Program-made: the position numbers and the translations under genes
Shown: piece after piece, positions 558 through 55,084 of the stretch
Layout: each line of letters starts with the position of its first letter
Numbering within the stretch: position 1 is the stretch's first letter
The notes under the pieces: generated by a model
Database searches by the model: none
The model's input: the letters and a program-made list of their open reading frames with translations, nothing else
Told to the model about the DNA's origin: nothing
Assembly: GCA_021158525.1 (NCBI GenBank)
Contig: JAGGUL010000021.1
Span: 1 to 59,173, forward strand
Length of the DNA: 59,173 nt
Reading direction: 5' to 3'
DNA from: Candidatus Hydrothermota bacterium
Lineage (GTDB): Bacteria; Hydrothermota; Hydrothermia; B15-G9; DRBW01

Positions 558-568
558 TTCCCTTTTCT

Positions 569-598: not shown

Positions 599-650
599 AG
601 TGAAATGGGGCTAAAAAGCCCTTTTGGGCGCCTTAAAAGCCCGCTTCAAT

Positions 651-666
651 TGGCACAAAGTTTGCA
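651..666 (+). promoter_or_regulatory. Sigma-54 promoter (-24/-12)
   Basis: TGGCACAAAGTTTGCA matches the sigma-54 consensus TGGCAC-N5-TTGCA with correct GG-to-GC spacing. It is 31 bp upstream of the TTG start at 698 and would drive the prepilin and MSHA-like operon. The expected start of transcription is near 678. Confidence 0.85.
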
Positions 667-697
667 ATAACTTCGGGATGAAAGGAGGCGGGATCGT

Positions 698-1588: not shown

Positions 1589-2937
1589 GAGCCATGAGAA
1601 TCGCACTAATAGTTGAACACGTGAACAAAAAGGTCGCTTTCGCCATCGGCGATGAGGGCAAAGGGATCGTCCAATCGGGACAGTTCCCGCTGGCGGACCT
1701 GCCGCTCTTTTTGAGCGAACTCAAGGGGAAAAAGGACGTCAGGGTGGCTCTGATCTCCGACAAGATGATCAACCGCAAATTCCTCATGCCACCGACAAAG
1801 GAAAAACTGATTAAAGAACTGATAAGACGTCAGCTCGTTCAACTCATAAAGGCCGAAGCCATATTCCGCTTTAGGGAGATAGGCACCGCCCTCCTCGAGG
1901 GAGTCACGAAAAAGGTCTTTCAGGTCATCGGCACTGATTTCGGCCTGGTTGAGGAGATCTATGCCCTTCTCGAGAGGAACGGGGCGAGGCCGAGCATCAT
2001 AACAACTTACCCCGTACCCCTTTCCCACTTTCTCCGCTCCAGATACGGCGAGGACAAGGTTATCGCCTTTGTGGAGCTCAACGAAAGTTATTACATAACG
2101 GTCATAAAGGGGCAAGAAATAAGAATATTTCGTCATCTCGGCAAGAAGAGTCTCGACGAGCTCGAGCCGGGGATGGGCGTCGAGATGTTCGTGAAGGCCC
2201 TGCTCCAGACGCTGTTTTATCACAAGCAGGAATTCCGCGGGGAAAACATCGACATTCTGGTGCTCAGCGGAAAGGGCGCGGAAAAATTGAGAGATGCCCT
2301 CAAGGAAGAGCTCCAGCTGGAGGTTCTCATCCACGAGGACGACCAAGAGATACCGCTCAAAGGGCTCCACGGCCTACTGGAAATCGATCGGAGAACCTGT
2401 AATTACAACTTGCTCCCGCCCGAAGCCATAGAAAAAGAAAAGGTCAAAAAAACCTTTCTTTCGGGGTCAGCTGTCCTTCTCCTGCTTATTGCTGTGATAA
2501 CCTTCCAGCACGCTAGGCTTACCGCTCATTATCAGAACCTCAACTATTTTAGGAAGGAACTTGAAAAAAGCGTGACAAAAAAGGAAATGGCGCTCAAAAA
2601 GCTCTCAAAAGAATTTATAGCCTTTCAGGTGGAAAAAGCCCAGCCGCCCTGGCCCGAGGTCCTCTTCGAGATGTCAGCCCTGGTGCCGGGACGCATCATC
2701 CTTACCTCCTTGTCCATCGAGAGGAAGGGAGAGCTGTTCCAGGGTGAGGCTGAGGGCAAGATCGTCTGCGAAAACGAAATAGAGGGCGTCGAACTCCTCG
2801 AAGAGATGAAAAGGAGATTTGATCTCTCCCCCTATTTTGAGAACGTAAGGTGCGAGGAAGATATAGACGAAGAGGGCATGGGTTTTAAGTTGCAGTTCAG
2901 TGTGCCGGTGAAAGGGAAACTGAACTATGGGTTTTAA
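1585..2937 (+). CDS. mshI: MshI-like PilM/PilN-type pilus assembly protein
   Basis: Residues 1 to about 285 look like a divergent actin-like PilM/GspL cytoplasmic domain. A single membrane segment follows at about 292-309 (LSGSAVLLLLIAVITF), then a coiled-coil and a periplasmic PilN-like domain. PilM and PilN parts are thus on one chain, as in MshI/GspL-type proteins. It would link the cytoplasmic ATPase to the periplasmic alignment complex. Start is GTG 1585, overlapping the previous stop; ATG 1594 is an alternative. Assignment rests on this architecture and on gene order (PilO-like, PilP-like, secretin, ExeA-type ATPase, TPR, MshE, MshG follow). The actin-like nucleotide motifs are weak. 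Confidence 0.75.
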   Translation: MRAMRIALIVEHVNKKVAFAIGDEGKGIVQSGQFPLADLPLFLSELKGKKDVRVALISDKMINRKFLMPPTKEKLIKELIRRQLVQLIKAEAIFRFREIGTALLEGVTKKVFQVIGTDFGLVEEIYALLERNGARPSIITTYPVPLSHFLRSRYGEDKVIAFVELNESYYITVIKGQEIRIFRHLGKKSLDELEPGMGVEMFVKALLQTLFYHKQEFRGENIDILVLSGKGAEKLRDALKEELQLEVLIHEDDQEIPLKGLHGLLEIDRRTCNYNLLPPEAIEKEKVKKTFLSGSAVLLLLIAVITFQHARLTAHYQNLNYFRKELEKSVTKKEMALKKLSKEFIAFQVEKAQPPWPEVLFEMSALVPGRIILTSLSIERKGELFQGEAEGKIVCENEIEGVELLEEMKRRFDLSPYFENVRCEEDIDEEGMGFKLQFSVPVKGKLNYGF

Positions 2938-3463
2938 GTCGACGCTTTCGATATTCATAGCAGCGGCTGCGCTGATCTTGTATGCCGGCAACAAAACGCT
3001 GGCGAGGATAGACAGCCGCATCAGGGAGACGGAAAAGGAAATCATGAAACTGGAGGCGAAGAGACGCTCACTCTGGATCTTCGAGAGGGTCCTCACGGAG
3101 AAAAAGGAAAAACTGTCGGCAATCCAGACCGTCTCGACCGACAACAAATTCGTTGCAAAGGCTGTGGCCACCGACCTTTTGGAAAGCACATTGAAACTCA
3201 CCCGTCTCGACGGCAAGGTCTATGCGATCAGCTTCGATCAGAGCAAGGATTTTCCGAACCTCCTTGGAATACGTGAGGTGAGCATACAGATCGGCATCCG
3301 CGATTACCCGACCTACATGAACCTCGTGAACTTCATGGAATACCTGTCGAAAGGGCCTTTCTTCGTTGAAGGGCTTTACATGGGAGGAGCTGCGCCCTCC
3401 AACCTCGCTGTCGGGGGCATTTTCAAGCTGCAGCTCAAATTTTACGCGACACCAGAGGATTGA
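2927..3463 (+). CDS. mshJ: PilO/MshJ-like inner-membrane alignment protein
   Basis: A 178-residue bitopic protein: N-terminal membrane helix (about residues 5-21), a coiled-coil (RIRETEKEIMKLEAKRRS) and a small ferredoxin-like periplasmic domain. This is the PilO/GspM plan, usually 150-210 residues. It overlaps the end of the PilM/N-like gene by 11 bases, implying translational coupling. PilO-type proteins dimerise with PilN-type domains in the periplasm and contact PilP. Sequence identity to known families is low, so the call rests on topology and position. Confidence 0.7.
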   Translation: MGFKSTLSIFIAAAALILYAGNKTLARIDSRIRETEKEIMKLEAKRRSLWIFERVLTEKKEKLSAIQTVSTDNKFVAKAVATDLLESTLKLTRLDGKVYAISFDQSKDFPNLLGIREVSIQIGIRDYPTYMNLVNFMEYLSKGPFFVEGLYMGGAAPSNLAVGGIFKLQLKFYATPED

Positions 3464-3465
3464 CC

Positions 3466-4047
3466 ATGTCTATTTTAAAGAGCAAAAAGCTGAAGATAGG
3501 CCTCGGAATCTTGGTCCTGCTGGTTGCAGTCTATTTCATGGGATTCAAATCGAAGGGCGGCCAGGTGGGGCCCGTGGAGGAGGAGAGAATCCCCTCGCTT
3601 ATGAGAACCGGGGGATCGAATACATCCAGTGCTCCCCTCTACACGCAGATCAGAAATCTCCGGGACCCCTTCAAGGACATGGAAATGAACGCCTGGAAAC
3701 TCGAAAACCTCGTGACGCTCAAGAAGAAAGAGGTAGAACTTCTCAAAGCGACCCTCGAGGAAAGCAAACTCAGAAAGGCCATCAAGGAACTGGGCGGCAA
3801 CATCGAGAAACCATCGATAGCGGATGGAATAAAATCCGACGGGACGGAAAAAGATAACAGGCCCAGGCTGCTGGCGGTGGCAATAGGCGAAAACTCAAGA
3901 AAAGCCCTGATTAAATTTGGATCTGAAAGCTACTGGATCACAGAAGGGCAGGCGGTGAAGGGTCTCCGGCTCGAAAAGGTGACAGATGAGTGGGTCTCTC
4001 TGTCATATAGGGGCAAAAAATACAAGATCAGACGGAGGGAGGGCTGA
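3466..4047 (+). CDS. mshK: PilP/MshK-like protein
   Basis: About 193 residues with one N-terminal membrane helix (KIGLGILVLLVAVYFMGF), a linker, the RDPF segment typical of PilP, a coiled-coil (about 70-110) and a C-terminal beta domain (WITEGQAVKGLRLEKV) of the PilP/GspC homology-region kind that touches the secretin. ATG 3466 is chosen over the in-frame TTG at 3460 because AGAGGA lies at a good distance. It follows the PilO-like stop by 2 bases. It likely ties the inner-membrane alignment complex to the secretin encoded next. Confidence 0.7.
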   Translation: MSILKSKKLKIGLGILVLLVAVYFMGFKSKGGQVGPVEEERIPSLMRTGGSNTSSAPLYTQIRNLRDPFKDMEMNAWKLENLVTLKKKEVELLKATLEESKLRKAIKELGGNIEKPSIADGIKSDGTEKDNRPRLLAVAIGENSRKALIKFGSESYWITEGQAVKGLRLEKVTDEWVSLSYRGKKYKIRRREG

Positions 4048-4048
4048 G

Positions 4049-5461
4049 ATGGTGAACAGGAAAAACCTTTTAATCCTGATATTGTTTCTGACAGGCTGCA
4101 CAGGAGTTGAGACGGGCAAGGGACCTCTGATAAAGGAGCCGCTGACCGAAGCGCCACCTCCTCCTCAGATAGGCCTCGCGCCGGAGAGAGAGGAGAGCAC
4201 TCTCGACAGAAAGCTTTTCACCTTTCATGCGAAGGACGTTCCCCTCTTCCAGGTCCTATCCCCTATCGCGGAGGAAGCGGGCCTCAACCTGATTTTCGAC
4301 CCCGATGTGGACCAGAGCGCACTCGTGACCGTTGATTTCAACAACGTCACCCTCAAAGAGGCGCTGGACTATATCTTGGAGCCCCTCGATTTGCTCTACA
4401 GGATCGACGGGACGAACCTGAGGATCAAGGTGTTCGACACGGTCATATTTGAGCTGGGCTACATCACACAGCCCAACATGGTGACGGTGAAGGTCGGGGG
4501 CGATGTCCTCGGTTCCGCCCAGGAGGAAGGTGGGCTCCTCGGAGACGTGGAAGTACAGGCAAAAACGCCGGAAGAGGCTCAGGACATATGGAAATCCGTG
4601 GAAACTGGTCTGAGTAAGCTCATCTCCAGCGAGGGCACTTACGTGATCAATTCTTTCAGCGGGACGATAATGGTCACCGATAGGAGAAAGAATCTCGAGA
4701 GGATCCGACAATTTATCGATTCGGTCCGCGAATCCCTCGGCAGACAGGTCCTCATCGAGGCAAAGGTCATCGAAGTGGCGCTTTCCGACGAGGGATCTTA
4801 CGGAATCGACTGGTCGCTGATAACAAGCAACGGCTCGAAGACAACATGGAACCTGTCCCAGAAACTGGGCCTCGCTCAGCCTGTGTTCGAGCTGAACCTT
4901 TCGGCGGGAGAAGTGAACGCCATCCTGGGGCTCCTCCAGAAGGAGGGCAAGGTACGGGTTCTCTCCCAGCCCCGCATCAGCGTGATAAACGGCCAGACGG
5001 CGGTTTTCAGCGTCGGAAAAGTGCAGGCTTACTGGGAACTGACGGCACAGGGAGGCGGAAGCCAGGTGGGCACGCCCATGGTATATCCGGAGAAAAAAGA
5101 GGTACTTGTGGGGCTTCTGATGGGCGTCATTCCCTTTATATCCTCAGACGGGACCATAATCCTTCACGTTGCACCCATCGTGTCGGATGTAACCGCATGG
5201 GAATCATACACCTGGCAGGGTCAGGAACTCATGGCACCTAACGTCAACATAAGGGAAACCTCAACGGTGGTGAGGGTTGAAGACGGTAACACGGTGGTGA
5301 TCGGCGGACTGATCACAAACCGCAGGAAAAAAGAGGTCAGCTCAATCCCCGTGCTGTCCAGCATCCCGCTTCTGGGCAACCTCTTTCGGAAGGTAGAGGT
5401 CAAAAACGAGAGGGCCGAGCTCGTGATATTTCTGACGCCCCACATAAAAAAGGCAGGTTGA
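4049..5461 (+). CDS. mshL: MshL-type secretin, lipoprotein
   Basis: A 470-residue outer-membrane secretin. The N-terminus is a lipoprotein signal with lipobox LTGC. A periplasmic N0/STN-like domain follows (LFTFHAKDVPLFQVL onward), then an N1-like domain, and a C-terminal secretin core ending in VVIGGLITNRRKKEV, VPVLSSIPLLGNLFR-like and ELVIFLTPHI motifs. ATG 4049 has a GGAGGGAGGG site just upstream. There is no AMIN domain. It forms the pore for the pilus and is one of two secretins in this window; the other (53867-55084) is shorter and not a lipoprotein by sequence. Length and plan match MshL. Confidence 0.9.
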   Translation: MVNRKNLLILILFLTGCTGVETGKGPLIKEPLTEAPPPPQIGLAPEREESTLDRKLFTFHAKDVPLFQVLSPIAEEAGLNLIFDPDVDQSALVTVDFNNVTLKEALDYILEPLDLLYRIDGTNLRIKVFDTVIFELGYITQPNMVTVKVGGDVLGSAQEEGGLLGDVEVQAKTPEEAQDIWKSVETGLSKLISSEGTYVINSFSGTIMVTDRRKNLERIRQFIDSVRESLGRQVLIEAKVIEVALSDEGSYGIDWSLITSNGSKTTWNLSQKLGLAQPVFELNLSAGEVNAILGLLQKEGKVRVLSQPRISVINGQTAVFSVGKVQAYWELTAQGGGSQVGTPMVYPEKKEVLVGLLMGVIPFISSDGTIILHVAPIVSDVTAWESYTWQGQELMAPNVNIRETSTVVRVEDGNTVVIGGLITNRRKKEVSSIPVLSSIPLLGNLFRKVEVKNERAELVIFLTPHIKKAG

Positions 5462-5462
5462 T

Positions 5463-6383
5463 ATGAAAAGGTTCGGAGAAGGAGGAGACTTCGGGAATTC
5501 AACCAGCATAGTCAAGAGCTACATGGAATATTTCGGGTTCGAGAAGAGGCCCTTTTTCATAACGCCCGACACGGAGTTTTTCTTCCTCTCAAATTCGCAC
5601 AGGGAAGCCCTGAATCACCTGCTTTACGGCATCCACGAGGGTATGGGCTTCGTCATGATCACCGGCGAGGTCGGAACTGGAAAGACCCTCCTCTCGAGGT
5701 ATTTCGTCGAAAACGCGGAGAAAAAAATTGAGACAGCCCTGATATTGAACCCGAGGGTATCGGAGAAGGAACTTCTCTGGCTCATACTCACTGACCTCGG
5801 CCATATCTTCTCCAGGAGCTACCGAAGCCTGACAAAGGCGGGGCTTCTGGAGCTTTTCAACAGGAAGCTGCTTGAATCCTACAGCCAGGGGAAAAGGGTC
5901 GCAGTCATAATAGACGAGGCTCAGGACCTGGAAGACAGGGTGCTCGAGTTTCTGAGGCTGCTCTCGAATCTCGAAACTCACAAGGACAAACTCATGACGA
6001 TAGTCCTTCTGGGGCAGCCCGAGCTTGAGAGGAAACTGAAGAACCGCAACCTCCGTCAGCTGAAACAGCGGATACTGGTCAGACACAGGCTCGAGCCCTT
6101 GGAGAAAGACGAGATCGGAGTTTACATTGACCACAGGATAACCCTCGCCGCTCCGACGGAAAGGCCCTATTTCGACGGCGCTGCCCTGAATCAGCTGTAC
6201 AGGTATTCCGGAGGGATCCCGAGGCTCATAAATGCTGCAGCGGAGCTGGCCCTCATAGCGGCCTATATAGATGGACAGCACAGGGTCGAAAAGAGGCACG
6301 TGGCCAAGGCCACAGACACTCTCGAGGGCACGGACAGATCAGATGGAAGAAAAAGCTGGATAAGGAAAATCCTGAGGTTCTAA
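5463..6383 (+). CDS. mshM: ExeA/MshM-type AAA ATPase
   Basis: An AAA+ ATPase of the GspA/ExeA family. The family start is visible (MEYFGFEKRPF at residue 21), then Walker A GEVGTGKT, Walker B VAVIIDEAQDL, and a C-terminal lid. There is no peptidoglycan-binding domain or membrane helix, unlike ExeA, so it resembles MshM. ATG 5523 is an alternative start and would give the family's usual N-terminus. In MSHA loci this ATPase lies between the secretin and the TPR protein, as here; in type II secretion its relatives help place the secretin through peptidoglycan. Confidence 0.85.
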   Translation: MKRFGEGGDFGNSTSIVKSYMEYFGFEKRPFFITPDTEFFFLSNSHREALNHLLYGIHEGMGFVMITGEVGTGKTLLSRYFVENAEKKIETALILNPRVSEKELLWLILTDLGHIFSRSYRSLTKAGLLELFNRKLLESYSQGKRVAVIIDEAQDLEDRVLEFLRLLSNLETHKDKLMTIVLLGQPELERKLKNRNLRQLKQRILVRHRLEPLEKDEIGVYIDHRITLAAPTERPYFDGAALNQLYRYSGGIPRLINAAAELALIAAYIDGQHRVEKRHVAKATDTLEGTDRSDGRKSWIRKILRF

Positions 6384-7385
6384 ATGAGCCTTATAAACGA
6401 AGCGCTGAAAAAGGCCGAAGAATCTAAAAAGAAACCCGATCCCCTCTGGAATCCCATCAAGAGGGAAAGGAAGGGATCCCGGAAAAAGTATTACTTGATT
6501 GCGGCAGCCGGGGCACTCCTCATCGTCGCGGTTATAGCCCTGAAAGCTTTCCTTTTCAAGGAAAGCCCCGCCATCGAACAGGAGCCACCACCTGTTGTGA
6601 TGGAGGAGAAAGCGGACGAAGGGACGAAGCCGCCGGCCTCTGCCCTCCTCGGCAAACCTGCGGGGAATTTCAGCGAAGGAGGAACCAGGGAGCCCGCAAA
6701 ACCCTCTGAAACCGGGGACATAAGGAAAACCAGGAAAATCAGGACTGAGAAAATAAACCCGACGAGAAAAAGGCCTCTGCCAGCCAAAGAAAAAGAGCTT
6801 CCTGCAGCGAAAAACGGCGAGGCTGAGCGCTATTTCCGGTTCGCCATCGCGAAGGAGAGGGCGGGAGAAATCGCCCTCGCCATGGACGCATATAGAAAGG
6901 CTCTCCTTCTGAATCCCGATCACGAACAGGCCCGCCTCAACCTGAGTGCCCTCCTTATCGACCGCGGGCTCTACAAGGAAGCGGTGAAGGTTCTCTCCGG
7001 AATAAGAAAGGGCGACGAAAACCCCAAGGTGCTCTTCAATCTGGCTCTGGCAAACTACGGCGCCGGGAACCTGAAAGTAGCGATCGAATACGCAAGGAGG
7101 TCCCTCGCCATAAGCCCCGACAACTTCAGGGCCTACCTGCTCCTCGGCGACATTACAGATGCGACTGGAAACAGGGAGGCAGCGCTGGCCAACTACAGAA
7201 AGGCTGCCGCCCTGGCCCCTGATTCACCGGAGGTCCTCTACAAATTGGGCAGAGAGCTCGACCTCCTCGGAAACAGGAAAGATGCCATCGCCTGTTACAG
7301 GGCTTTCCTGAACAAGAGCAGGGACAGAGAAAAGAGAACGCTGGTCCTGAGAAGGCTCGCTTATCTCCAACAGGGAGGGAAGTGA
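6384..7385 (+). CDS. mshN: MshN/GspB-like membrane TPR protein
   Basis: A 333-residue protein beginning MSLINEALKKAEE, the hallmark N-terminus of GspB/MshN partners of ExeA-type ATPases. One membrane helix follows (about 34-54, YYLIAAAGALLIVAVIALKA), then a Lys/Pro-rich linker and at least five TPR-like repeats to the C-terminus. The start codon abuts the ATPase stop, and the gene ends by overlapping the MshE start (TGATG). It probably pairs with the ExeA-type ATPase, anchoring it at the inner membrane while the periplasmic TPRs contact pilus parts or peptidoglycan. Confidence 0.8.
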   Translation: MSLINEALKKAEESKKKPDPLWNPIKRERKGSRKKYYLIAAAGALLIVAVIALKAFLFKESPAIEQEPPPVVMEEKADEGTKPPASALLGKPAGNFSEGGTREPAKPSETGDIRKTRKIRTEKINPTRKRPLPAKEKELPAAKNGEAERYFRFAIAKERAGEIALAMDAYRKALLLNPDHEQARLNLSALLIDRGLYKEAVKVLSGIRKGDENPKVLFNLALANYGAGNLKVAIEYARRSLAISPDNFRAYLLLGDITDATGNREAALANYRKAAALAPDSPEVLYKLGRELDLLGNRKDAIACYRAFLNKSRDREKRTLVLRRLAYLQQGGK

Positions 7386-9016
7386 TGGGCATGAAACCTC
7401 TCGGGCAGATGCTCATCGAAGCGGGTTTCATCACCGAAGAACAGCTCGAAATCGCCCTGAGGGAGCAGAAGAGGACCGGCGAGAAACTCGGTGAGATACT
7501 GCTGAGGATGGGCTTTGTGACCCGGGAGGACATCCTCAAGGTACTCAGCAGGCAGTGGGGAGTCCCATACGTAGATCTCAAAAAAGCTTTTGTCGATCCC
7601 AACGTTATAAAACTTGTCCCCGAAGAAACGGCCCGCGAGCATAAATTGATCCCCATCGAGGCCAGGGAAGGCACGCTTGTGGTGGCCATGGCCAACCCCA
7701 ACGACATATACGCGATCGACCTCATCGAGTCGATCACCGGCTACAAGGTCGAGCCACGCCTTTCCGACGAAGAAAGTATCTTCAAAGCGATAGAGGTCTA
7801 CTACGGGGTAGCAAAGTCCCCCGATCAGGTTATCGAGGAGAGCGTCAAGCTCGCCCTGACGGAGGAAACCGCCGAGGGAACGCCTCCCATTGCTCAGCTC
7901 GTCGATATGATCGTCATAAAGGCGGCCATAGAGAGAGCTACCGATATACACATCGAGCCCGATGAAAGGGTCGTAAGGGTGCGATACAGGATAGACGGGA
8001 TACTGCGATCTTACTACACGCTGCCCCGAAAGATATACGGAGCAGTGGTCACAAGGGTCAAGATCATCGCGGGCCTCGACATATCGGAACAGAGAATACC
8101 TCAGGATGGAGCTTTTACTATTCCATTTGGTCTCAAAGAGATAGCCATCAGGGTATCCACTTACCCCACCATTTACGGCGAGAGCATCGTCATGAGGCTC
8201 CTCAACAAGGCGAGCCTGCTCTCGCTGGATCAGCTGGGATTTACCCCGGATCATCTGACCGTTCTCCGGCGCATTATCAATAAGCCTTACGGCATGATAG
8301 TGGTTACGGGCCCCACGGGAAGCGGTAAGACCACAACCCTCTACTCGATTCTGAGCGTCCTGAATGCGCTTGAGAAAAACATAATGACAGTGGAGAACCC
8401 CAGCGAGTACCGCATTCCCCTGATAAAGCAGTCCCAGGTAAACGAAAAGGCGGGCTTTACCTTCGCCAGGGCGCTGAGAGCGATGTTGAGACATGACCCC
8501 GACGTCATATTGATCGGGGAGATGAGGGACCGGGAAACGGCCGAGATGGGGTTCAGGGCGGCGATGACGGGACACCTGGTTTTCTCCACAGTCCATGCCA
8601 ACACCGCGGCGGCCGCCATCCCGCGGCTTATCGACATGGGAATAGAACCTTTTATCGTAGCGAGCTCCTTACTCGCCGTGATAGCTCAGAGGCTGGTCCG
8701 CAGGATCTGCCCGCGATGCAAAGAGGAATACAAACCAGACAAGGAAACCCTCCAGCTTCTCGGGCTCAGGGAAGACGAAGGGCCCTTTTTCAAAGGAAAG
8801 GGATGCGAATACTGCAAGAACAGCGGTTATAAGGGAAGGATAGGAATCTACGAGATCCTCGAGATAACTCCCGAGATAGCCAAGATGATCGCCATGAAAG
8901 CTTCGGCATATGACATCGAGCTTGCGGCTGGATTGAAGAAGATGAAAGAGGACGGAATAGAAAAGGCGAGGGCGGGCATCACGACCATCGAAGAAATTCT
9001 CAGGGTGGTAGGATAA
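7385..9016 (+). CDS. mshE: Pilus assembly ATPase, MshE/PilB type
   Basis: A hexameric GspE/PilB-family extension ATPase of about 543 residues. The N-terminus holds an MshEN domain (LGQMLIEAGFITEEQL and KLGEILLRMGFVTRED), the fold that binds cyclic di-GMP in Vibrio MshE. Next come the N2D region, Walker A GPTGSGKTTT (about 308-317), the Asp box TVENPSEY, Walker B DPDVILIGEMRD, the His box HLVFSTVHAN and a four-Cys zinc site (CPRC and CEYC). The Asp box has Asn where Asp is usual. It is the only extension ATPase gene in the window and precedes the platform gene. Confidence 0.95.
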   Translation: MGMKPLGQMLIEAGFITEEQLEIALREQKRTGEKLGEILLRMGFVTREDILKVLSRQWGVPYVDLKKAFVDPNVIKLVPEETAREHKLIPIEAREGTLVVAMANPNDIYAIDLIESITGYKVEPRLSDEESIFKAIEVYYGVAKSPDQVIEESVKLALTEETAEGTPPIAQLVDMIVIKAAIERATDIHIEPDERVVRVRYRIDGILRSYYTLPRKIYGAVVTRVKIIAGLDISEQRIPQDGAFTIPFGLKEIAIRVSTYPTIYGESIVMRLLNKASLLSLDQLGFTPDHLTVLRRIINKPYGMIVVTGPTGSGKTTTLYSILSVLNALEKNIMTVENPSEYRIPLIKQSQVNEKAGFTFARALRAMLRHDPDVILIGEMRDRETAEMGFRAAMTGHLVFSTVHANTAAAAIPRLIDMGIEPFIVASSLLAVIAQRLVRRICPRCKEEYKPDKETLQLLGLREDEGPFFKGKGCEYCKNSGYKGRIGIYEILEITPEIAKMIAMKASAYDIELAAGLKKMKEDGIEKARAGITTIEEILRVVG

Positions 9017-10215
9017 TGCCCGAATACACCTATCTCGCTGTTGATCAGGGCGGAAAGGAGATAAAGGGAGAGCTCGTCGCATACTCCGCCCAGGAAGTGC
9101 AAAAGAGGCTGACCGAAATAGGCCTGATACCCGTCGACGTCAGGCGGAAAACAAAGGGCGGTTTCTCCCTCTTCAAGGGGAAAAAAGTAAAAAGAAGGGA
9201 TCTCTTAACATTTACCATCCAGTTTTTCACAATCGCCGACTCGGGGGTGCCCATAGTCAGGGGACTGGAGGAAATCGGCGCCCAGATGAAAAACCCCTAT
9301 TTCAAAAAGGTCATCTTCGACATCAAACAGAGGATCGAGCTCGGTGAATCGCTGTCGCAGGCCCTTTCCCATTATCCGAAGATATTCCCCAACTACTACC
9401 TCGGAGCAATAAAGACCGGGGAGGAAAGCGGAAAGCTGACGGAGATCCTCAGGGACCTCATCGTCTTTCTCGAAAAACAGGAAGCCCTCGCCGCCGAGCT
9501 GAAGCAAGCCATGACATACCCGATCTTCGTGACCTTTGCACTGGGCGGCGTGGCCATCTTCTACGTCTTTATAATCCTTCCTAAGGTCCTGGAACTCGTG
9601 AGCCAGCTGAACCAGAAAATTTCAGGTCCAACCCGGTTGCTGATGGATTTCACCAACACAGCGAGGCAGTACTGGTACCTGCCCCTCATAGGCATCTTCC
9701 TCCTCGTATTTGCAGTCCTTGTCGCCAGGAAACACGAGCGCGGCAGGTACTACCTGGATCTCATCAAGATCAAGATACCGATTCTGGGAAACATAGTGCT
9801 CAAGGCTATCCTGGCACGCTTCGCGGCAAACCTCGCCCTTCTGCTTCGTTCGGGCGTGGAAATCGTGGGGGCCTTCCAGATGCTCGGCCAGACAATAGGA
9901 AACAGCGTCATAAGGGAAGGCATCCTCCTGGCCATGGAAAACCTGAAGGGCGGCGCCTCCATCACCGAAGCCATAGCTGGCCTCCCCCTTACTCCTTTCA
10001 TCCTCAGCATGATAACCATCGGGGAGGAAACGGGACGCCTCGAGGAAGAACTATCGAAAGTAGCCAACTACTATGAGAAAGACGTGGAAAGGGCGACAAA
10101 ACAGGCCATCACACTCCTCGAACCGATGATGCTCATAATTTTCGGAATTGGAGCCGCCGGCGTCTTTATCGCCGTTCTCACCCCCATTTACGACGCCATA
10201 TCAAAACTCCAGTGA
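9016..10215 (+). CDS. mshG: Pilus platform protein, MshG/PilC/GspF type
   Basis: A 399-residue inner-membrane protein with two T2SSF domains (about 65-190 and 270-390), each with the GxSLxxAL-type start (GESLSQALSHYPKIF and GGASITEAIAGLPL) and membrane helices between and after. It would couple ATPase rotation to insertion of pilins at the base. The start overlaps the last base of mshE. It ends the plus-strand operon, and its last 15 bases overlap the 3' end of the oppositely oriented rmlB gene. Confidence 0.95.
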   Translation: MPEYTYLAVDQGGKEIKGELVAYSAQEVQKRLTEIGLIPVDVRRKTKGGFSLFKGKKVKRRDLLTFTIQFFTIADSGVPIVRGLEEIGAQMKNPYFKKVIFDIKQRIELGESLSQALSHYPKIFPNYYLGAIKTGEESGKLTEILRDLIVFLEKQEALAAELKQAMTYPIFVTFALGGVAIFYVFIILPKVLELVSQLNQKISGPTRLLMDFTNTARQYWYLPLIGIFLLVFAVLVARKHERGRYYLDLIKIKIPILGNIVLKAILARFAANLALLLRSGVEIVGAFQMLGQTIGNSVIREGILLAMENLKGGASITEAIAGLPLTPFILSMITIGEETGRLEEELSKVANYYEKDVERATKQAITLLEPMMLIIFGIGAAGVFIAVLTPIYDAISKLQ

Positions 10216-47261: not shown

Positions 47262-47290
47262 TTGAAATGGGGAAGCAGAAGCAGTATATA
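47262..47290 (+). promoter_or_regulatory. Sigma-70 promoter of pilD, leaderless start
   Basis: TTGAAA (47262-47267), 17-base spacer, TATATA (47285-47290), then 7 bases to the ATG at 47298. The in-frame TTG at 47262, which could be taken for a start codon, is the -35 element. Confidence 0.7.
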
Positions 47291-47297
47291 CCAATTC

Positions 47298-48041
47298 ATG
47301 TTTTTCGCCTTCGCTTTCGCGCTGGGCCTCGCTTTCGGAAGTTTCCTGAATGTGTGTATATACAGGATTCCGAGGGGAATGTCCATCGTCTATCCTCCAT
47401 CCCATTGTCCTTCATGCGGACACAGGTTAAGTCCCCTCGACAACATTCCCCTTCTATCTTACCTGTTGCTCAGGGGCAAGTGCAGATACTGCGGTGCCAG
47501 GATCTCACCGCGATATCCACTTGTAGAACTCCTCACGGGCTTCCTCCTCCTGTTCCTCTACGCTAAAATTGGGCTGAAGCTGGATTTTCTGTTTTATCTT
47601 CCTCTCGTGGCCTGTCTCGTAGCCCTCTCTTTTATAGACATCGACACGGGGAGACTTCCCGACAGCCTCACACTCCCCCTAACAGCCATTGGGCTCGCCC
47701 TTTCCTTTCTTCCCGGCGCTATTTCCCCTCCTGCCTCCGTCCTCGGCATAATCTCAGGACTCCTGACGATGTACCTGGTGGCGATTCTGGGGAAGGCCCT
47801 TTTTAAAAAGGAAGCCCTGGGTGGAGGAGATATAAAGCTTATGATGGCCGTGGGAGCCTTCCTCGGAGTGGGAGGGGTTTTCTTCTCCCTTTTCTCCGGC
47901 TCTATCCTGGGGAGCATCGTCGGAATCGGCGTTATGGCGAAGAAAAAGGAGAACATAATACCTTTCGGTCCTTTTCTCTCTGCAGGAGCTCTGCTCTACC
48001 TCTTCGCGGGAAAATTCACCCTGAGCTTACTCGGCTTTTGA
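47298..48041 (+). CDS. pilD: Prepilin peptidase PilD
   Basis: A 247-residue aspartic membrane peptidase that cleaves and N-methylates prepilins. The N-terminal domain has GLAFGSFLNVCIYRIPRG and two zinc CxxC pairs (CPSC, CRYC), so the methylase part is present. The catalytic Asp residues are in FIDIDTGRLPD and GGGDIKLM. About seven membrane helices follow the family plan. ATG 47298 is chosen because the promoter -10 ends 7 bases before it. It is the only prepilin peptidase seen and would serve all prepilins in the window. Confidence 0.95.
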   Translation: MFFAFAFALGLAFGSFLNVCIYRIPRGMSIVYPPSHCPSCGHRLSPLDNIPLLSYLLLRGKCRYCGARISPRYPLVELLTGFLLLFLYAKIGLKLDFLFYLPLVACLVALSFIDIDTGRLPDSLTLPLTAIGLALSFLPGAISPPASVLGIISGLLTMYLVAILGKALFKKEALGGGDIKLMMAVGAFLGVGGVFFSLFSGSILGSIVGIGVMAKKKENIIPFGPFLSAGALLYLFAGKFTLSLLGF

Positions 48042-48093: not shown

Positions 48094-48122
48094 TTGACAA
48101 CACAGTCATTGCAAAATATCAT
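48094..48122 (+). promoter_or_regulatory. Sigma-70 promoter of second pilus operon
   Basis: TTGACA (48094-48099), 17-base spacer, TATCAT (48117-48122). Transcription would start near 48129, leaving about 19 nt with GGGGA before the ATG at 48148. Confidence 0.85.
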
Positions 48123-48147
48123 AACTAAAACGAATGGGGACAAAAAG

Positions 48148-49272
48148 ATGAGGGCTCGTGTCGAAAAAGATGCCCTGAAGTACCTTGCTCTCGGGGATTA
48201 CGACAGGGCGATCGAGGAATACAAGAAGATCATAAGAGAGGGGATAGAGAATCCTGAGATCTTCAATTCCCTTGGCGATGCATATCTAAGGAAGGGAGAC
48301 GTCCCCAATGCCCTCAGCAATTACTGGAAAGCCCTTGAAAAATTTGAGGCCGATGGCCTTCCCGAAAACGCCTATGCCCTCGCCAAGAAGATCGGGCGCT
48401 ATGAGAATTCAAAAAGAGTCTACATCAAACTGGCGGAGCTATCGTCACTTCTGGGCTACCACGATGAGGCCGTCGATTATCTCAACAGATGCCTCGATAT
48501 GGGGCTTGGCCGGGACGAAATAGACAGGGTCATGAACAGTTTCAAGAAAGTAGCATCGGAGATCTCAAAGGACATGATAAACGAGCCCCGCTTCGAGAGG
48601 CTTTTCCTCCGGCTACAGGAAATAGTTGAAGGATTCGGGGATCTCAGCCTGGCCCACGGTATAGGGTCTGAAGTACTTGAAGAAAAAACTCTTGACCAGA
48701 TACAGGAAGAAGAAAAGAAAAAAACCGAAGAGAAGAAAAAAGCAAAAGAAGAAGCCAGGAAAAGAACACCACGGCCCGTCCAGAGGAAAGAGGAAGCTCC
48801 TCAAAAAGCCCCAGATAAGGAAATCAACACGAAGTCCAGAGCCCATCTGATCTCCCTTCTTATGAGCATAAAAGAAAATCTCGGCGCCTCCGACAGCCAG
48901 GGCTTCGAGGAGCTTCTTGAGGAAGGAAAAGAACTTTTCGACATGGGTCTTCACGAAGCGGCCATATCGAGCTTTCAAAAGGCCCTTTCCATCAAAGAAA
49001 CTCCGGCCGCTTATGCTCTTCTGGGCAGAGCTTTCCTCGAAAGAGGCGAAGCGGAACTGGCGCTGATGGCCTTCGAAAGAGGCCTGGGACTCGCAAAGGA
49101 TGTGAATGACCAGGTCGTGCTCAATTACTGGAAGGGCCTCGCCCACGAGAAGCGGGGCGAAGTCAAGGAATCCCTGGAAGCTCTTAGAAGGGCCTATTTG
49201 CTCGACAGGGATTTCGGAGAAATCAGGGAAAAAATGGAAGAGATCTCCGGGAAACAGAGGAGAAGAAGCTGA
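48148..49272 (+). CDS. TPR protein of pilus operon
   Basis: A 374-residue soluble protein. About four TPRs lie in the N-terminal 160 residues (ALGDYDRAIEEYKKIIREG is the first), then a very charged Lys/Glu linker, then about three TPRs (LHEAAISSFQKALSIKE, ERGEAELALMAFERGL). No signal or membrane helix is present, so it acts in the cytoplasm. ATG 48148 is chosen because the promoter lies over the upstream in-frame sequence. It is the first gene of the operon and is followed after one base by the MshEN-AAA+ gene, which suggests a scaffold for that ATPase or for the pilus motor. Confidence 0.82.
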   Translation: MRARVEKDALKYLALGDYDRAIEEYKKIIREGIENPEIFNSLGDAYLRKGDVPNALSNYWKALEKFEADGLPENAYALAKKIGRYENSKRVYIKLAELSSLLGYHDEAVDYLNRCLDMGLGRDEIDRVMNSFKKVASEISKDMINEPRFERLFLRLQEIVEGFGDLSLAHGIGSEVLEEKTLDQIQEEEKKKTEEKKKAKEEARKRTPRPVQRKEEAPQKAPDKEINTKSRAHLISLLMSIKENLGASDSQGFEELLEEGKELFDMGLHEAAISSFQKALSIKETPAAYALLGRAFLERGEAELALMAFERGLGLAKDVNDQVVLNYWKGLAHEKRGEVKESLEALRRAYLLDRDFGEIREKMEEISGKQRRRS

Positions 49273-49273: not shown

Positions 49274-50449
49274 ATGACAAAGACCGCTGAAAAATACAAA
49301 AACCTGAGCCAATTGCTCCTCGAGGAGGGCTATCTAAAGAGAGCTGACTACGAAAAGGCCCTGAAACGCCAATGGGAAAAAGGAGGTTCACTGGAGGAGA
49401 ACCTGGTGGACCTGGGATTCCTCTCCGAGGACGACCTGATTAAACTTCTGGTAAAACATTTCGGCGTCCATTACCTCGATCTCTCCAGGCTCGAGATAGA
49501 TCCCGAAGCTGTCTTTCACATTCCTCTCAGAGTCGCTCTCGCCCACAAGGCGATCGCCGTCAGGAAGAGCAAAAACTCCCTCGCCGTTGCCATGGCCAAT
49601 CCCCTCGATGCCACAGCTCTGGCAGAAATAAAGAAAGTAACCGACCTTCGAATTTATCCCTTTGTGAGCCGGATCTCAGATATCGAAAAAGCGATTTCCA
49701 CCATCTATTCCGAAACCCTGGGCAAAAGGCCATCCGGGGACCATGAGCTCCCCTTCAGGATATCCAGGGATGAGGGAATGAATTTCGGCGGCTTCATTGA
49801 AGACGAGACCAACTCCCTCGTCCTCTCAATGGCGAAAAGCTTCATCGAGGGAAAAGACGTCAAGTATCTGGCTATAGTCGGCGAGCCTGGAACGGGGAAA
49901 ACCCACATCCTGCAGGCTATAGCCGGTGCTCTAAAAGAAAAAAACGAGCCCTTTGAATATCTCAGTGTCCCCATCCTCGCCCTCACGGCGGAGAGCCAGA
50001 GGAGCAACATGATAGCTCTTCTCGAGGCTCTCGAGGGGAAAACCCTGCTCCTCGACGATTTTGAAGCCGTCGGGGATAGCAGGCCATCTCAGTCTTTCAT
50101 GTCCCTCCTGCTCGACAGGGCTTCGAGGGACGGGATAAAGGTAGTCCTGGCCACTTCAAAACCTCCCAAGAACATAGAATCCCTCGATCCCTCGCTCAGG
50201 GCGAGGGTCTCGGGCTTTGTGGTGGCCCAGCTGGGCTCCCCGAGCGCTGATCTCAAGAAAAAGCTCCTCAGGAGACTGCTCGGAAAGAACAAACCTGGAG
50301 ACGACATCGAAGATCTCATAGCTCGTAATACGTCGTCAAACCTGCGGGAGATTTTCGCTATAGCCCAACAGCTTAAGGCGCTCTCCAGAAACGGCGAAGT
50401 CGAGATTACTCTCGGTCTTGTAGAACAAATACTCAGTAATTTTCGTTAA
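49274..50449 (+). CDS. MshEN domain fused to DnaA/Hda-like AAA+ ATPase
   Basis: A 391-residue fusion. Residues 1 to about 145 match the N-terminal MshEN/GspE-N domain of pilus ATPases, both halves present (LLLEEGYLKRADYEKALKRQ and ENLVDLGFLSEDDLIKLL) and ending VAMANPLDATAL as in MshE. The GspE motor domain is absent. From about 175 there is a DnaA-like AAA+ module: Walker A GEPGTGKTH (203-211), Walker B LLLDDFE (257-263), sensor 1 VVLATSKPP, an Arg in LDPSLRARVSG and lid SNLREIFAIAQQL. No DnaA DNA-binding domain IV follows. The LG dipeptides of the cyclic-di-GMP motif, kept in the window's MshE, are replaced. Likely a cytoplasmic regulator of the pilus machine. Confidence 0.85.
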   Translation: MTKTAEKYKNLSQLLLEEGYLKRADYEKALKRQWEKGGSLEENLVDLGFLSEDDLIKLLVKHFGVHYLDLSRLEIDPEAVFHIPLRVALAHKAIAVRKSKNSLAVAMANPLDATALAEIKKVTDLRIYPFVSRISDIEKAISTIYSETLGKRPSGDHELPFRISRDEGMNFGGFIEDETNSLVLSMAKSFIEGKDVKYLAIVGEPGTGKTHILQAIAGALKEKNEPFEYLSVPILALTAESQRSNMIALLEALEGKTLLLDDFEAVGDSRPSQSFMSLLLDRASRDGIKVVLATSKPPKNIESLDPSLRARVSGFVVAQLGSPSADLKKKLLRRLLGKNKPGDDIEDLIARNTSSNLREIFAIAQQLKALSRNGEVEITLGLVEQILSNFR

Positions 50450-50461: not shown

Positions 50462-52129
50462 ATGACCTTAGACCTGTTTAAAAAGGGAAAAGGGAGTCCG
50501 GGAAAGGGGAAAACTTTTCTCGGACTCGACATAGGAAGTCGATTTCTAAAACTGGTAGAGGTAAAGAGGGAATCGAGGGGCTATAGACTCCTCTGCTACG
50601 GAGTGGAAGAGCTTCCACCCGAGGCAATAGTCGGCAAGGAGATAATGGACCGACAGGTCGTCATCGACAAGCTCAACGAACTCCGGGAAAGATGCGCTCC
50701 CACATCGAACAGGGTAGTGATAAATATCGCCGGCAGAGGAGTCATCGTCAAAAAGATAACCATGCCCCTGGTCAGCGACAAGGAGATCCACGAGTCAGTA
50801 CAGTGGCAGCTCCGCGAAAACATTCCCTTCGACCTCTCCGATGTAAGCTGGGACTATAAAGTCCTGCGAAAAGACGAAGTCACCGAGGAGATGGAAATCC
50901 TCCTGGTTGCGGCCAAAAACGACGCTGTCTACAACCTGCTGGACATAGTGCGCAGTTCGGGGTTCAAGCCGGTAGTTATAGACCTCGACCCGATGGCCCT
51001 CCTGAATCTCCTCGCCGCCATCGACTACATCAACGAAGAGGAGCGCTATGCGGTGATCAACGTGGGATACGAGAGCACAAGTGTGCTTCTGGTGTCCGGT
51101 GGAACCTATGCAGCCAACAGAGAGATTCCGATCGCTTCCAAGGTATACATCGAAGCTCTCATGAGATTCATGGACCTCACCAGTGAAAAAGCCAGTTCGG
51201 TTTTGCTCGGAGATGAGGAAAATGGCTTTGACCCCGAAGATGTCAAAAGGATCGCCGAGTCGATCCACGAGAAAATGGCCGAACACCTGGAGAGGCTCTT
51301 CCCGGTTTTCAGGCCCGAATCCAGCAACGGAAATCACCTCGACAGGATTTACCTCTCTGGCGGCGGCGCCACCATAGTTAACCTTCGGGAATTTCTATCT
51401 AAACGCTACAACAAGCCTGTCGAGATAGTGGATCCTCTATCCAGGTTCAAAGTCGACGATGGGGTAATCTCGGAAGAGGACCAGAGCAAGCTATCTCCCC
51501 TCTTCTCCACCGCCCTCGGCCTGGCCCTTCGGAAGGCAGGAAAACCGCGAATCGCCATAAACCTTTTGCCCTTCGAGGAAAGGGAACTCGAAAAACCGCC
51601 CTTCATGACGGTACCGGAGGCCGTCCTGACCGTGATTCCACCGCTGCTCGTGGCCGCTTTCGTCGTGGGAACTTCCATCAAGGTATCTTCCCAGACCAGA
51701 AAGCTGAAAGCCCGTCTTGTTGAGGTCAAGGCAGAACAGGAAATCTACAGGAAAAAAGTCGGCGAACTGAAGGTCGTCGAGACAAAAAGAAACGAGATCA
51801 AGCAAAGGATTCAGCTTCTCGGGCAGCTCGCTGAAGGCCGATACGTGCCCGTGAAGGTTCTCAACGAACTGAACAGAATTCTCCCCGACGGGGTGTGGCT
51901 CACGCAGATCGCCGTCGAGGAAGAGATGATGTCGGGCTCCCAGCGATTGAGGATCAAGGGAGCCGCTCTTTCCTTCTTCGACCTGACTGATTTACTGGAC
52001 ATCCTGACGAAATCCAGGGCATTTGGAAACGTCGACCTCGTCCAATCTTCCAAGGAAGAGAAAGAAGGCCAATCCGTGATCAACTTTGAACTCGTCGTCG
52101 TTACAAATCCCGAGCTTAAAAGGAGGTAA
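50462..52129 (+). CDS. pilM: PilM-PilN fusion protein
   Basis: A 555-residue fusion. Residues about 15-360 are PilM, actin-like, with FLGLDIGSRFLKLVEV, the WQLRENIPFDLSDVSWDY region and the phosphate loop LSGGGATIVNL. The PilN part begins at INLLPFEERELEKPP (about 362), the motif by which separate PilN proteins bind PilM, then one membrane helix (about 385-405), a coiled-coil and a periplasmic PilN domain. In most bacteria these are two genes. The protein would span the inner membrane and connect the cytoplasmic motor to PilO and PilP. It is the clearer of two PilM/N chains in the window. Confidence 0.92.
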   Translation: MTLDLFKKGKGSPGKGKTFLGLDIGSRFLKLVEVKRESRGYRLLCYGVEELPPEAIVGKEIMDRQVVIDKLNELRERCAPTSNRVVINIAGRGVIVKKITMPLVSDKEIHESVQWQLRENIPFDLSDVSWDYKVLRKDEVTEEMEILLVAAKNDAVYNLLDIVRSSGFKPVVIDLDPMALLNLLAAIDYINEEERYAVINVGYESTSVLLVSGGTYAANREIPIASKVYIEALMRFMDLTSEKASSVLLGDEENGFDPEDVKRIAESIHEKMAEHLERLFPVFRPESSNGNHLDRIYLSGGGATIVNLREFLSKRYNKPVEIVDPLSRFKVDDGVISEEDQSKLSPLFSTALGLALRKAGKPRIAINLLPFEERELEKPPFMTVPEAVLTVIPPLLVAAFVVGTSIKVSSQTRKLKARLVEVKAEQEIYRKKVGELKVVETKRNEIKQRIQLLGQLAEGRYVPVKVLNELNRILPDGVWLTQIAVEEEMMSGSQRLRIKGAALSFFDLTDLLDILTKSRAFGNVDLVQSSKEEKEGQSVINFELVVVTNPELKRR

Positions 52130-52132: not shown

Positions 52133-52540
52133 ATGAAAACCAGATTCTATTTGGGGTTGTTGGCTTCGCTCATCATCGCCCTCCTGGTAGGGGGCTGCCA
52201 ACAGAGCGAAGATAATCCTGTAAACACGGTGGTCAGAGGGTATGTCTACACCGATAGTACCTTTACCGAGCCAGTGGAGAGCGTCTACGTCATCGTGAGG
52301 GTAGACGATGCGAGCCTCGTTCCCGACTACACCTCTTATACCGATTCGACTGGCAAATACGATATCGCCTTCTACCTCGGACACACCTTCGAGTGCTCTT
52401 TTTCCTATAAGTATTACGCCAAAGTGAACTTGATCTTCACCTACGAGGGCAAAACCTATATGACTCCCGACTATTACCTGGAGCTCGGAGAGGAATACGA
52501 CCTTCCACCTGTACATCTGGGCCTGTTTGCTTCACCATAG
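52133..52540 (+). CDS. Small lipoprotein with Ig-like domain inside pilus operon
   Basis: A 135-residue predicted lipoprotein (lipobox LVGGC at about 22-26) with a beta-sandwich of carboxypeptidase-regulatory/Ig type (VVRGYVYTDSTFTEPVESVY and YTDSTGKYDIAFYLGHTF). AGGAGG precedes the ATG. It is placed between PilMN and PilO, 3 bases and 8 bases from its neighbours, where PilO normally follows PilN directly. It is too short and all-beta to be a TPR pilotin such as PilF/Tgl. A role as a periplasmic or outer-membrane partner of the secretin is inferred from position only. Confidence 0.8.
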   Translation: MKTRFYLGLLASLIIALLVGGCQQSEDNPVNTVVRGYVYTDSTFTEPVESVYVIVRVDDASLVPDYTSYTDSTGKYDIAFYLGHTFECSFSYKYYAKVNLIFTYEGKTYMTPDYYLELGEEYDLPPVHLGLFASP

Positions 52541-52548: not shown

Positions 52549-53133
52549 ATGGATTTTAAAAAGGCGTCGTTCAGGAATACGTTTCTCGTCGTTCTGATCC
52601 TGTCAGTGGTCCTGGCTTTCTTCTATAACAGCATGGTATACAGTTCCAAGAAGAAGAACCTCACCAAACTCAAAACTGAGCTGAAAGAAGCACAGGCAAA
52701 TCTTGATGTGCTGAAAGCCAGGGCCATGAATATAGACAGGGTAAAAGCCGAACTCGATTCACTCACGCGGATGTGGAATGTGCTCAAGAAATACCTTCCA
52801 ACCGAACAGGATCTGCCGGAGTGGCTCAGGGAGATAGCCGATGCGGGCAGGCGTTCGGGCATAGATTTCCTCCTCTTCAAACCTCAACAGCCGGTGAGTC
52901 ACGAGCTTTACACAGAGTATCCAGCGGAAATCCGCGTCAGATCGGGTTATCACGAACTCGGCACCTTCTTGAGCTTTCTGGTCAACCTTCCGAGGCTCAC
53001 GAAAATAAGTCACCTCAGCATGAATTCTTTCAAGAATCCCAAAGTGCCCGCCCAGACGATGGAGGTGAGCTTCACGGCCTCCACCTTTATCTATACGCCC
53101 AAACCGGCTCAAGCTGAGGAGGAGAAAAAATGA
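52549..53133 (+). CDS. pilO: Pilus alignment protein PilO
   Basis: A 194-residue bitopic inner-membrane protein: membrane helix (FLVVLILSVVLAFFYNSMVY), a coiled-coil (KKKNLTKLKTELKEAQANL) and the PilO ferredoxin-like periplasmic domain with LPTEQDLPEWLREI and YHELGTFLSFLVNLPRL, both diagnostic for PilO. It forms a heterodimer with the PilN part of the upstream fusion. It overlaps the AMIN-PilP gene by 4 bases. Confidence 0.92.
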   Translation: MDFKKASFRNTFLVVLILSVVLAFFYNSMVYSSKKKNLTKLKTELKEAQANLDVLKARAMNIDRVKAELDSLTRMWNVLKKYLPTEQDLPEWLREIADAGRRSGIDFLLFKPQQPVSHELYTEYPAEIRVRSGYHELGTFLSFLVNLPRLTKISHLSMNSFKNPKVPAQTMEVSFTASTFIYTPKPAQAEEEKK

Positions 53134-53870
53134 GAAACAAATCGAAAGTGATGCTTCTGACCGTGTTATTGGTCCCTCTCTTTCTCTCTGCGGAGCCCTT
53201 CCTGAACGTGAAGGAGATCAAATTCGAGCGAACAGGCGAGATAAGAGAGGTCCTCATAATCGGTTCCGCCCCGATCACCCGTTACAGGGATACTCTGAAG
53301 GCCGATGAGAAAATCCTGACCATCGACATCGACAGCGCCCTGTACAAGGCTTCCTTCAGAAACCTGAAAATCAATGACGATTGCGTCGCCTCCATTTCGG
53401 GCGCTCAGTTCAAAGTAACCCCCGCCCCCACGGTGAGAATCAACATAAAGTTCAAAACTAACGTGGAATATGCACTGCTGCCCAAAACCGATACACTCAC
53501 CATTATAGTGGAGAAGGCAAAGGAGACTATAAGAATAAGTCCGGTGCTCGGCACCTTCTTTTTCTACAACAGTTACGGCAGAAGGGATCCCTTCGAGCCC
53601 CTGCTCTCGCAGGAAAAGAGCGATACTCTTCTAAACGTGGGAAGCGCCATGCTCGTCGGAATCATCCATCAGGGAGATACCAGCCTTGCCCTCCTCAAAG
53701 ACGTCAATGGTATGGGTTTCGTCCTCAAGAAAGGGGACAGGGTGCGGGGCGGATCTGTTCTCGACATAAAGGACAACGAAGTAGTGTTTCTTTTGAGCGA
53801 TTACGGATTTAACCGAAAGGTTATCCTGAAATTAGAAAAAGACCAATCGTTGGAAGGGAGGTCGCAATGA
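53130..53870 (+). CDS. pilP: AMIN-PilP fusion protein
   Basis: A 246-residue exported protein with a signal peptide ending near LFLSAEP. Residues about 24-135 look like an AMIN domain (VKEIKFERTGEIREVLIIGS onward), the peptidoglycan-binding module usually found at the N-terminus of PilQ. After it, YGRRDPFEPLL starts the PilP part, with the beta-domain AMLVGIIHQGDTSLALLKD and GYRVRGGSVL-like sequence. The PilP lipobox is missing; anchoring may be by the AMIN domain instead. It overlaps pilQ by 4 bases, and that PilQ lacks AMIN. Confidence 0.85.
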   Translation: MRNKSKVMLLTVLLVPLFLSAEPFLNVKEIKFERTGEIREVLIIGSAPITRYRDTLKADEKILTIDIDSALYKASFRNLKINDDCVASISGAQFKVTPAPTVRINIKFKTNVEYALLPKTDTLTIIVEKAKETIRISPVLGTFFFYNSYGRRDPFEPLLSQEKSDTLLNVGSAMLVGIIHQGDTSLALLKDVNGMGFVLKKGDRVRGGSVLDIKDNEVVFLLSDYGFNRKVILKLEKDQSLEGRSQ

Positions 53871-55084
53871 AGGCTATGATCGTTAAGAGCTTCATTTTGA
53901 TGGCCCTTATAGGTTCGGGGCTGTACAGCCAGGAAATCCATGGAGAGCGTCTCGTCTCCATGGATTTCGAGAACGCAGACATAAGGACTGTATTGAGGGC
54001 TTTCGCCGATATCGGCGGCGTGAACATCATCGCCACAAAAGGCGTTCAGGGCACAGTAACCCTCAAGTTAAGGAATCTCCCGTGGAAACAGGCTCTAAAA
54101 GCAGTGCTTGAGATCAACGGGTTCTCCATGATCGAAGAGGACAACATCATAAAGGTGATGACGGCGGCGGAGATGGAGGACAGCAAAAAGGCGATGAAAC
54201 TCGAAACGCGGATTTTCAACGTCAAGTTTGCCAAAGCCGACAAGCTGGAAGGGGTCATTTCCGGCATGCTTTCTTCTCGGGGATCGATAAAGGTGGAATC
54301 CAGAACTAACTCCCTTATCGTGACAGATATCCCCATGGTGATGTCGAGGATCGAGGACATCCTCGCCCGTGTCGATAACCCCACGCCTCAGGTCCTGGTC
54401 AAAGCAAAGCTCGTCGAAGTAAATTACGGGGCCCTGCGGGAGCTGGGTGTCGTATGGAGAGCGGGAAATATGGAGGATGTCAGGACATCCACCCATTCGG
54501 GCGCCGAGCTCTCCGTTCCACCGCCCGCGTCGAATGCCGCCTTTTACTTCGGCAAACTTCTATCTCAGGCCCAGCTTGACCTCGTTATCTCCACACTCGA
54601 AGACGAGAACAAGGCCAATGTCCTCTCTGAACCCAGCATACTGGTGGCAGATAATCAGGAAGCCATGATCCTGTCAGGCAAGAAGATACCCATAGTAACG
54701 AGAGATTTCGCCGGAAACCAGATCATTCAGTTCTTCGATGTGGCCCTCAAACTGACGGTCACGCCGCACATAAGTCCCGACGGCAAGATCGTAATGGACC
54801 TTCACCCAGTGATAAGCGATATAGCAGGCGAAGCCCCCGGAGCAGTCGGACCGGTGATCTCTTCTCAGGAGGCACAGACGAAGCTGACCGTGAACAACGG
54901 CGAAACTGTTGTGATCGGAGGCATAATCAAGACCCAGTCCCAGGATGTGAAGAAAGGTGTTCCCCTTCTTTCCAGCATCCCGATCATCGGCAACCTGTTC
55001 AAGTATACAAAGCACGAGGTGAACAAAACGGAGCTCATGATTTTTGTCACGCCACAAATAGTGGAGACAACGGCTTCGGAGTGA
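53867..55084 (+). CDS. pilQ: Secretin PilQ, short form
   Basis: A 405-residue secretin with a signal peptide (ILMALIGSGLYSQ). Domains: N0/STN (SMDFENADIRTVLRAFADI), N1 (IFNVKFAKADKLEGVIS to IEDILARVDNP), then the secretin core (EPSILVADNQEAMILSGKK, LTVTPHISPDGKIVM, VVIGGIIKTQS, VPLLSSIPIIGNLFK, LMIFVTPQI). Typical PilQ proteins have 600-900 residues because of N-terminal AMIN repeats, which are absent here and appear instead on the PilP gene. It is the last gene of the operon. Confidence 0.95.
   Translation: MKAMIVKSFILMALIGSGLYSQEIHGERLVSMDFENADIRTVLRAFADIGGVNIIATKGVQGTVTLKLRNLPWKQALKAVLEINGFSMIEEDNIIKVMTAAEMEDSKKAMKLETRIFNVKFAKADKLEGVISGMLSSRGSIKVESRTNSLIVTDIPMVMSRIEDILARVDNPTPQVLVKAKLVEVNYGALRELGVVWRAGNMEDVRTSTHSGAELSVPPPASNAAFYFGKLLSQAQLDLVISTLEDENKANVLSEPSILVADNQEAMILSGKKIPIVTRDFAGNQIIQFFDVALKLTVTPHISPDGKIVMDLHPVISDIAGEAPGAVGPVISSQEAQTKLTVNNGETVVIGGIIKTQSQDVKKGVPLLSSIPIIGNLFKYTKHEVNKTELMIFVTPQIVETTASE

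Follow-up and report, generated by a model that had tools for sequence, protein, structure and literature searches.

Fusion gene and its operon

The window, the whole 59,173-nucleotide stretch of DNA analyzed here, carries on its (+) strand a gene encoding a 391-amino-acid fusion of an MshEN domain with a DnaA-type AAA+ module, as judged from the reading frame, profile matches, homologues, and a structure search. The ORF begins with an ATG at 49274 and its stop codon ends at 50449. A AGAGGAGAAG-type ribosome-binding site, rated good, lies closely 5′ of the ATG, and the coordinates and frame in an earlier note on this sequence were found to be correct. The gene starts one base after the stop codon of a gene for a cytoplasmic TPR protein (48094 to 49272, +; Pfam) and ends 12 bases before that for a fused PilM-PilN protein, PilMN (50462 to 52129, +; Pfam and synteny). 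A prepilin peptidase of the A24 type (47262 to 48041, +) is the usual second gene upstream of the fusion. Downstream of pilMN on the same strand are a small conserved lipoprotein without a Pfam family (52133 to 52540), PilO (52549 to 53133; Pfam), a PilP-like protein assigned by position and lacking a Pfam match (53130 to 53870), and a PilQ-type secretin (53867 to 55084; Pfam). The lipoprotein gene is kept between pilMN and pilO in most loci of the phylum, and its product may be a pilotin or secretin partner.

Full-length homologues of the fusion were identified in 31 of the 147 genomes of the phylum (candidate WOR-3/Hydrothermota), which ruled out a one-off fusion or an assembly artefact. Two further genomes (G014 and G019) carry copies with a degenerate AAA+ module and an extra C-terminal part, and one more copy is cut by a contig end. 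The usual gene order is A24 peptidase, TPR, fusion, PilMN, lipoprotein, PilO, PilP, secretin, and minor pilins. A survey of the fusion next to pilM, as called for in the earlier note, placed the fused pilMN directly downstream and on the same strand in all 33 intact loci of the phylum (29 by neighbor reading, the locus of the window, and three more, in G002, G025, and G036, by coordinates). This pilMN type occurs in just one more genome, G018, where a contig end cuts the locus and the AAA+ back half still precedes pilMN. A TPR gene lies upstream in 26 of the 28 loci with a readable upstream gene, and two f21 loci have MnmE in its place. The position that the earlier note assigned to the fusion, between a TPR gene and PilMN, is supported. 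Inspection of further types of pilus operon in this phylum showed no fusion, and no plasmid-borne copies covering 80% of the query were found. A narrow-alignment contig scan gave matches in the WOR-3/Hydrothermota phylum only, although, as it used a single 10-residue pattern, it makes no statement on absence elsewhere.

Related genes were seen at several loci. Stand-alone MshEN genes occur between two TPR genes, just 5′ of the fusion, in three f17 genomes (L088, 7542 to 8033; L095, 5642 to 6076; L096, 4243 to 4746), and variant fusions, in which the AAA+ lid is degenerate and an additional part follows at the C terminus, lie at L090 (7209 to 8729) and L091 (9629 to 11011). The window itself has a second, MSHA-like pilus cluster (13 to 10215), comprising pilins, a PilM/GspL-like protein without a Pfam match, PilO/PilP-like proteins, a secretin, an AAA_22 ATPase (MshM/ExeA-like), a TPR protein, MshE, and a PilC-like protein. 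In this cluster, too, an AAA ATPase and a TPR protein occur together.

Domain make-up, fold, and constraint

The earlier note described an MshEN N-terminal domain followed by a DnaA-type AAA+ module in place of the GspE motor, and Pfam, NCBIfam, and fold comparisons all agree with this. The domain search it proposed placed both parts above their Pfam cutoffs. PF05157 (MshEN) matched residues 63 to 149, the MshEN_C subdomain (49460 to 49720, +), with 62.9 bits against a curated cutoff of 23.1 (E = 2.8e−17), and Bac_DnaA matched residues 169 to 314 with 38.8 bits against 23 (E = 1.4e−9). Ahead of MshEN_C lies the four-helix MshEN_N region (49301 to 49459, +). Using NCBIfam, residues 1 to 149 were assigned to PilB and residues 159 to 389 to DnaA (6e−24) or Hda (1e−20); the protein as a whole falls well below both equivalog thresholds, reaching 84.9 of 343.9 bits for DnaA (TIGR00362) and 74.4 of 194.8 bits for Hda (TIGR03420). 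The DnaA domain III-like module (residues 159 to 391; 49748 to 50446, +) carries Walker A (GEPGTGKTH) and Walker B (LLLDDFE) motifs, both intact as first read, together with a box VII arginine finger (LRAR) and a sensor II arginine (SNLRE), so that the window protein has all four. DnaA domain IV is missing, as had also been noted, and the protein stops after the AAA+ lid.

A sequence search of solved structures paired the front of the fusion with PilF, PilB, and MshE and the back with DnaA and Hda. Structure prediction of the protein alone, also suggested in the earlier note, gave an AlphaFold2 model with a mean pLDDT of 81 and a pTM of 0.56, with a disordered linker near residues 150 to 160, and the relative placement of the two domains is thus not set by the model. 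Its best fold matches were DnaA crystal structures over domain III (TM, 0.82 to 0.83 on the target), followed by Hda; the front matched MshE/PilF N domains (TM, 0.66 to 0.79). There was no Pfam match to the GspE motor (PF00437) at an E value of ≤0.01, and with the structure search led by DnaA, a degenerate GspE domain as the C-terminal half was ruled out. No description of an MshEN-DnaA AAA+ architecture was found in the accessible, open-licence literature, though it may have been described elsewhere. Hence neither of the two findings that the earlier note named as counting against a new architecture, a degenerate motor or a previous description, came to light. A role in a defense system was set aside, as only weak generic AAA matches were obtained.

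Residue counts were taken over 30 fusions of the phylum. The Walker A lysine is present in 29 and the Walker B aspartate in all 30, and the near invariance of the Walker residues indicates constraint on ATP binding. Sensor II has its arginine in 25. Only 15 of the 30, the window protein among them, still have the box VII arginine finger, which means that hydrolysis of the kind performed by a DnaA-like oligomer cannot apply to all copies. This bears on the idea that the fusion is a loader that places the hexamer of PilB or PilT on the PilM/PilC platform, much as DnaA/DnaC-type AAA+ proteins serve the DnaB helicase ring. The model shows two helices between the sheet strands ahead of Walker B, as in initiator-type AAA+ proteins, and the next gene after the fusion is pilM or pilB; however, such loading would be mere analogy, and with half of the copies lacking the arginine finger it appears improbable.

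The likeness of the AAA+ domain to DnaA and Hda could also suggest a link to DNA, either as a replication regulator or as a pilus DNA-uptake factor. Against this, domain IV is absent, the window genome encodes a separate full DnaA, and the neighbors are pilus genes only. The window fusion has lost part of the basic stretch that immediately precedes Walker B in DnaA, which argues further against a DNA role, and such a role is considered very improbable. Nor was derivation of the module from the DnaA of the same genomes supported: a tree of the AAA+ modules puts the phylum's DnaA proteins together (support, 100/99) and separate from the fusions, although with long branches. The window lineage sits on a very long branch of 2.6 changes per column, and its AAA+ module may accordingly have lost properties; such branches also leave the deep order and the relations among the fusions unsure.

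That long branch, the degenerate cyclic-di-GMP motifs, and the partial AAA+ modules of G013, G014, and G019 might be taken as signs of a decaying remnant without function. Yet the reading frame is open in 31 genomes, and dN/dS is about 0.06 for the whole gene and low in both domains, with only the short linker evolving fast. Compared with its congener, the window gene gave a dN of 0.077 and a dS of 1.24, the latter near saturation, values in the range of the neighboring pil genes. The fusion gene is under purifying selection, and a remnant is barely credible.

Cyclic-di-GMP motifs and fusions in other phyla

An MshEN receptor of cyclic-di-GMP is recognized by two RLGxx...G...LxxxLxxQ motifs with Arg, Gly, and Gln contacts. 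The window fusion departs from this in both motif I (residues 10 to 33, N-L-S...Q33) and motif II (residues 39 to 62, S-L-E...H62). Its LG dipeptides have become LS and LE, whereas the window's MshE retains PLG and KLG, and in motif II, Ser also stands in place of Arg and His in place of Gln. The NCBIfam model of the motif nevertheless scores above its cutoff (40.7 versus 38) despite the substituted contact residues. Among 30 fusions of the phylum, the motif I glycine is retained in one and the motif II glycine is replaced by Glu in 28. The earlier note's contrast with MshE stands for both dipeptides of the window fusion, but a relative of the same genus still has LG in motif I, and hence the motif II change alone is general. 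Vibrio MshE no longer binds cyclic-di-GMP when the equivalent glycine of motif I is changed, and similar changes account for the loss of binding in XpsE (PMC5013675).

Wider sampling, with two samples of several hundred genomes, added three small phyla in which fusions occur (3 of 3, 2 of 3, and 1 of 3 sampled genomes). What had been seen as a single odd protein is instead a conserved family in four phyla, whose members outside WOR-3 reach 217 bits on the Bac_DnaA profile. The fusion lies upstream of pilB in two of these phyla. In G317 it immediately precedes pilB, followed by pilT, a PilS/PilR-like pair, and pilC. The order in G294 is prepilin peptidase, four MshEN proteins (three with DnaA modules), a TonB-like protein, and pilB, and one of its MshEN-DnaA proteins has 1993 residues and two DnaA modules. 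Giant fusions at L074 (6943 to 12924) and L110 (7416 to 11339) combine MshEN, a DnaA AAA+ module, and ∼1200 residues of probable coiled coil, with a second DnaA AAA+ module in L074; both adjoin further MshEN-DnaA genes and pilB. The G317 fusion and members of the G294 phylum retain LG in both motifs, and the full receptor motif is present there. The motif loss described in the earlier note is supported: the cyclic-di-GMP contact residues are lost across WOR-3, but the motif is intact in some forms outside it, which makes the loss lineage specific. Judging from these motifs, the fusion MshEN domains of two other phyla probably still sense cyclic-di-GMP.

In the third phylum the fusion is away from pilus genes, in a cluster ordered MglA-like GTPase, MglB-like Roadblock protein, AAA_22 ATPase, DUF4388 (PATAN), MshEN-DnaA, and DUF4388 (PATAN) (G262; L113, 2949 to 10522). 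In Myxococcus, SgmX brings PilB to the pole (PMC7519303). By analogy with MglA-SgmX recruitment of PilB in Myxococcus xanthus, the fusion could act with the adjacent TPR protein as a pole or positioning adaptor of an MglA-type pathway. This would suit the G262 cluster and the adjacency of the TPR gene in most phylum loci. The best NCBIfam match of the TPR protein is SgmX, albeit weak and far below the cutoff, and the window genome has an MglA-like GTPase beside a PATAN (DUF4388) response regulator (G000, contig C23; L152, 4241 to 7144). However, the TPR similarity is unspecific, two f21 loci have no TPR gene at that place, and mglA lies outside the WOR-3 pil operon. A positioning role is considered rather unlikely. 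A PF00025 search for MglA was noisy, with matches in most control genomes. The L152 region also contains a small ORF of possible Roadblock type.

A candidate ATP switch on PilM

The reading considered best, at a probability of roughly one-half, is that the fusion is an ATP-binding adaptor docked on PilM via its PilB-like domain, where it would control assembly or motor engagement. It is the simplest reading because the protein has a PilB N domain, pilM is always directly downstream, and the ATP-binding residues are kept. The fusion would belong to the type IV pilus machine as a cytoplasmic subunit dedicated to it. Through its MshEN domain, which is homologous to the part of PilB that contacts PilM, it would dock on the ring of PilM, here fused to PilN. 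The DnaA-type AAA+ domain would bind ATP and act as a switch through a shape change or self-association, and this switch may time the completion of the alignment complex or the engagement of the PilB/PilT motor. The MshEN domain of the WOR-3 fusions would have given up cyclic-di-GMP sensing to serve as a docking module.

PilB sits in a socket formed by PilM, and the contact between N1 and PilM has been inferred from solved T2SS complexes (PMC11656802). Mimicry of the PilB N domain and contact with PilM by the fusion are plausible, given the strict pilMN adjacency and the binding of PilM/GspL by MshEN/N1 domains in relatives, though gene order by itself is no proof of contact. The shared N domain would equally allow a competitive decoy, in which MshEN, seated where PilB would bind PilM or PilC, prevents extension under a favorable ATP state. 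Full motors are separately encoded in the window genome (MshE at 7394 and a PilB-like protein on contig C74). Retention in the core assembly operon at every such locus, however, speaks more for a structural or positive factor than for an optional inhibitor; competition with the motor is just one among a number of readings, and an unlikely one. Recruitment of a DnaA-type AAA+ protein as an assembly factor or loader is likewise doubtful; here a motor-like docking domain would gather the hexameric motor or the PilMN ring in an ATP-dependent manner, under cyclic-di-GMP control in some phyla and not in WOR-3.

The core parts list of type IV pili is generally held to be largely settled. The central alignment operon of a whole bacterial group nonetheless encodes a part without a known counterpart in model systems, and the fusion family suggests an ATP-dependent control step in pilus assembly that has not been described before. 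The fusion brings the DnaA initiator ATPase family into connection with pilus assembly and places MshEN on an AAA+ output, with the second-messenger site lost in one lineage and retained in others. This lineage-wise pattern offers a direct route to separating docking from ligand sensing in MshEN.

Several known systems share parts of this arrangement. The extension ATPases PilB, MshE, and GspE have the N-terminal MshEN/N1 domain (residues 1 to 149 of the fusion) and the pilus operon setting in common with it, but they carry a RecA-like GspE motor (PF00437) where the fusion has its AAA+ module. DnaA domain III and Hda share the AAA+ core, Walker A and B, sensor II, and the box VII arginine with the window fusion, which differs from DnaA in lacking domains I and IV, in having MshEN in front, and in its pilus operon setting. 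The GSPII-A domain of Thermus PilF (PMC12002112) and XpsE (PMC5013675) provide examples of MshEN domains with altered motif residues that do not bind cyclic-di-GMP, and the fusion resembles them in its altered motifs; PilF and XpsE, however, are true motor ATPases, and the fusion is not. The MshEN regulators with REC, HD-GYP, CheA, CheX, cyclase, and kinase outputs (Wang et al. 2016, PMC5013675) resemble the fusion in joining MshEN to another output, but a DnaA-type AAA+ output is missing from the list in the main text of that study, and the WOR-3 fusion lacks the ligand contacts.
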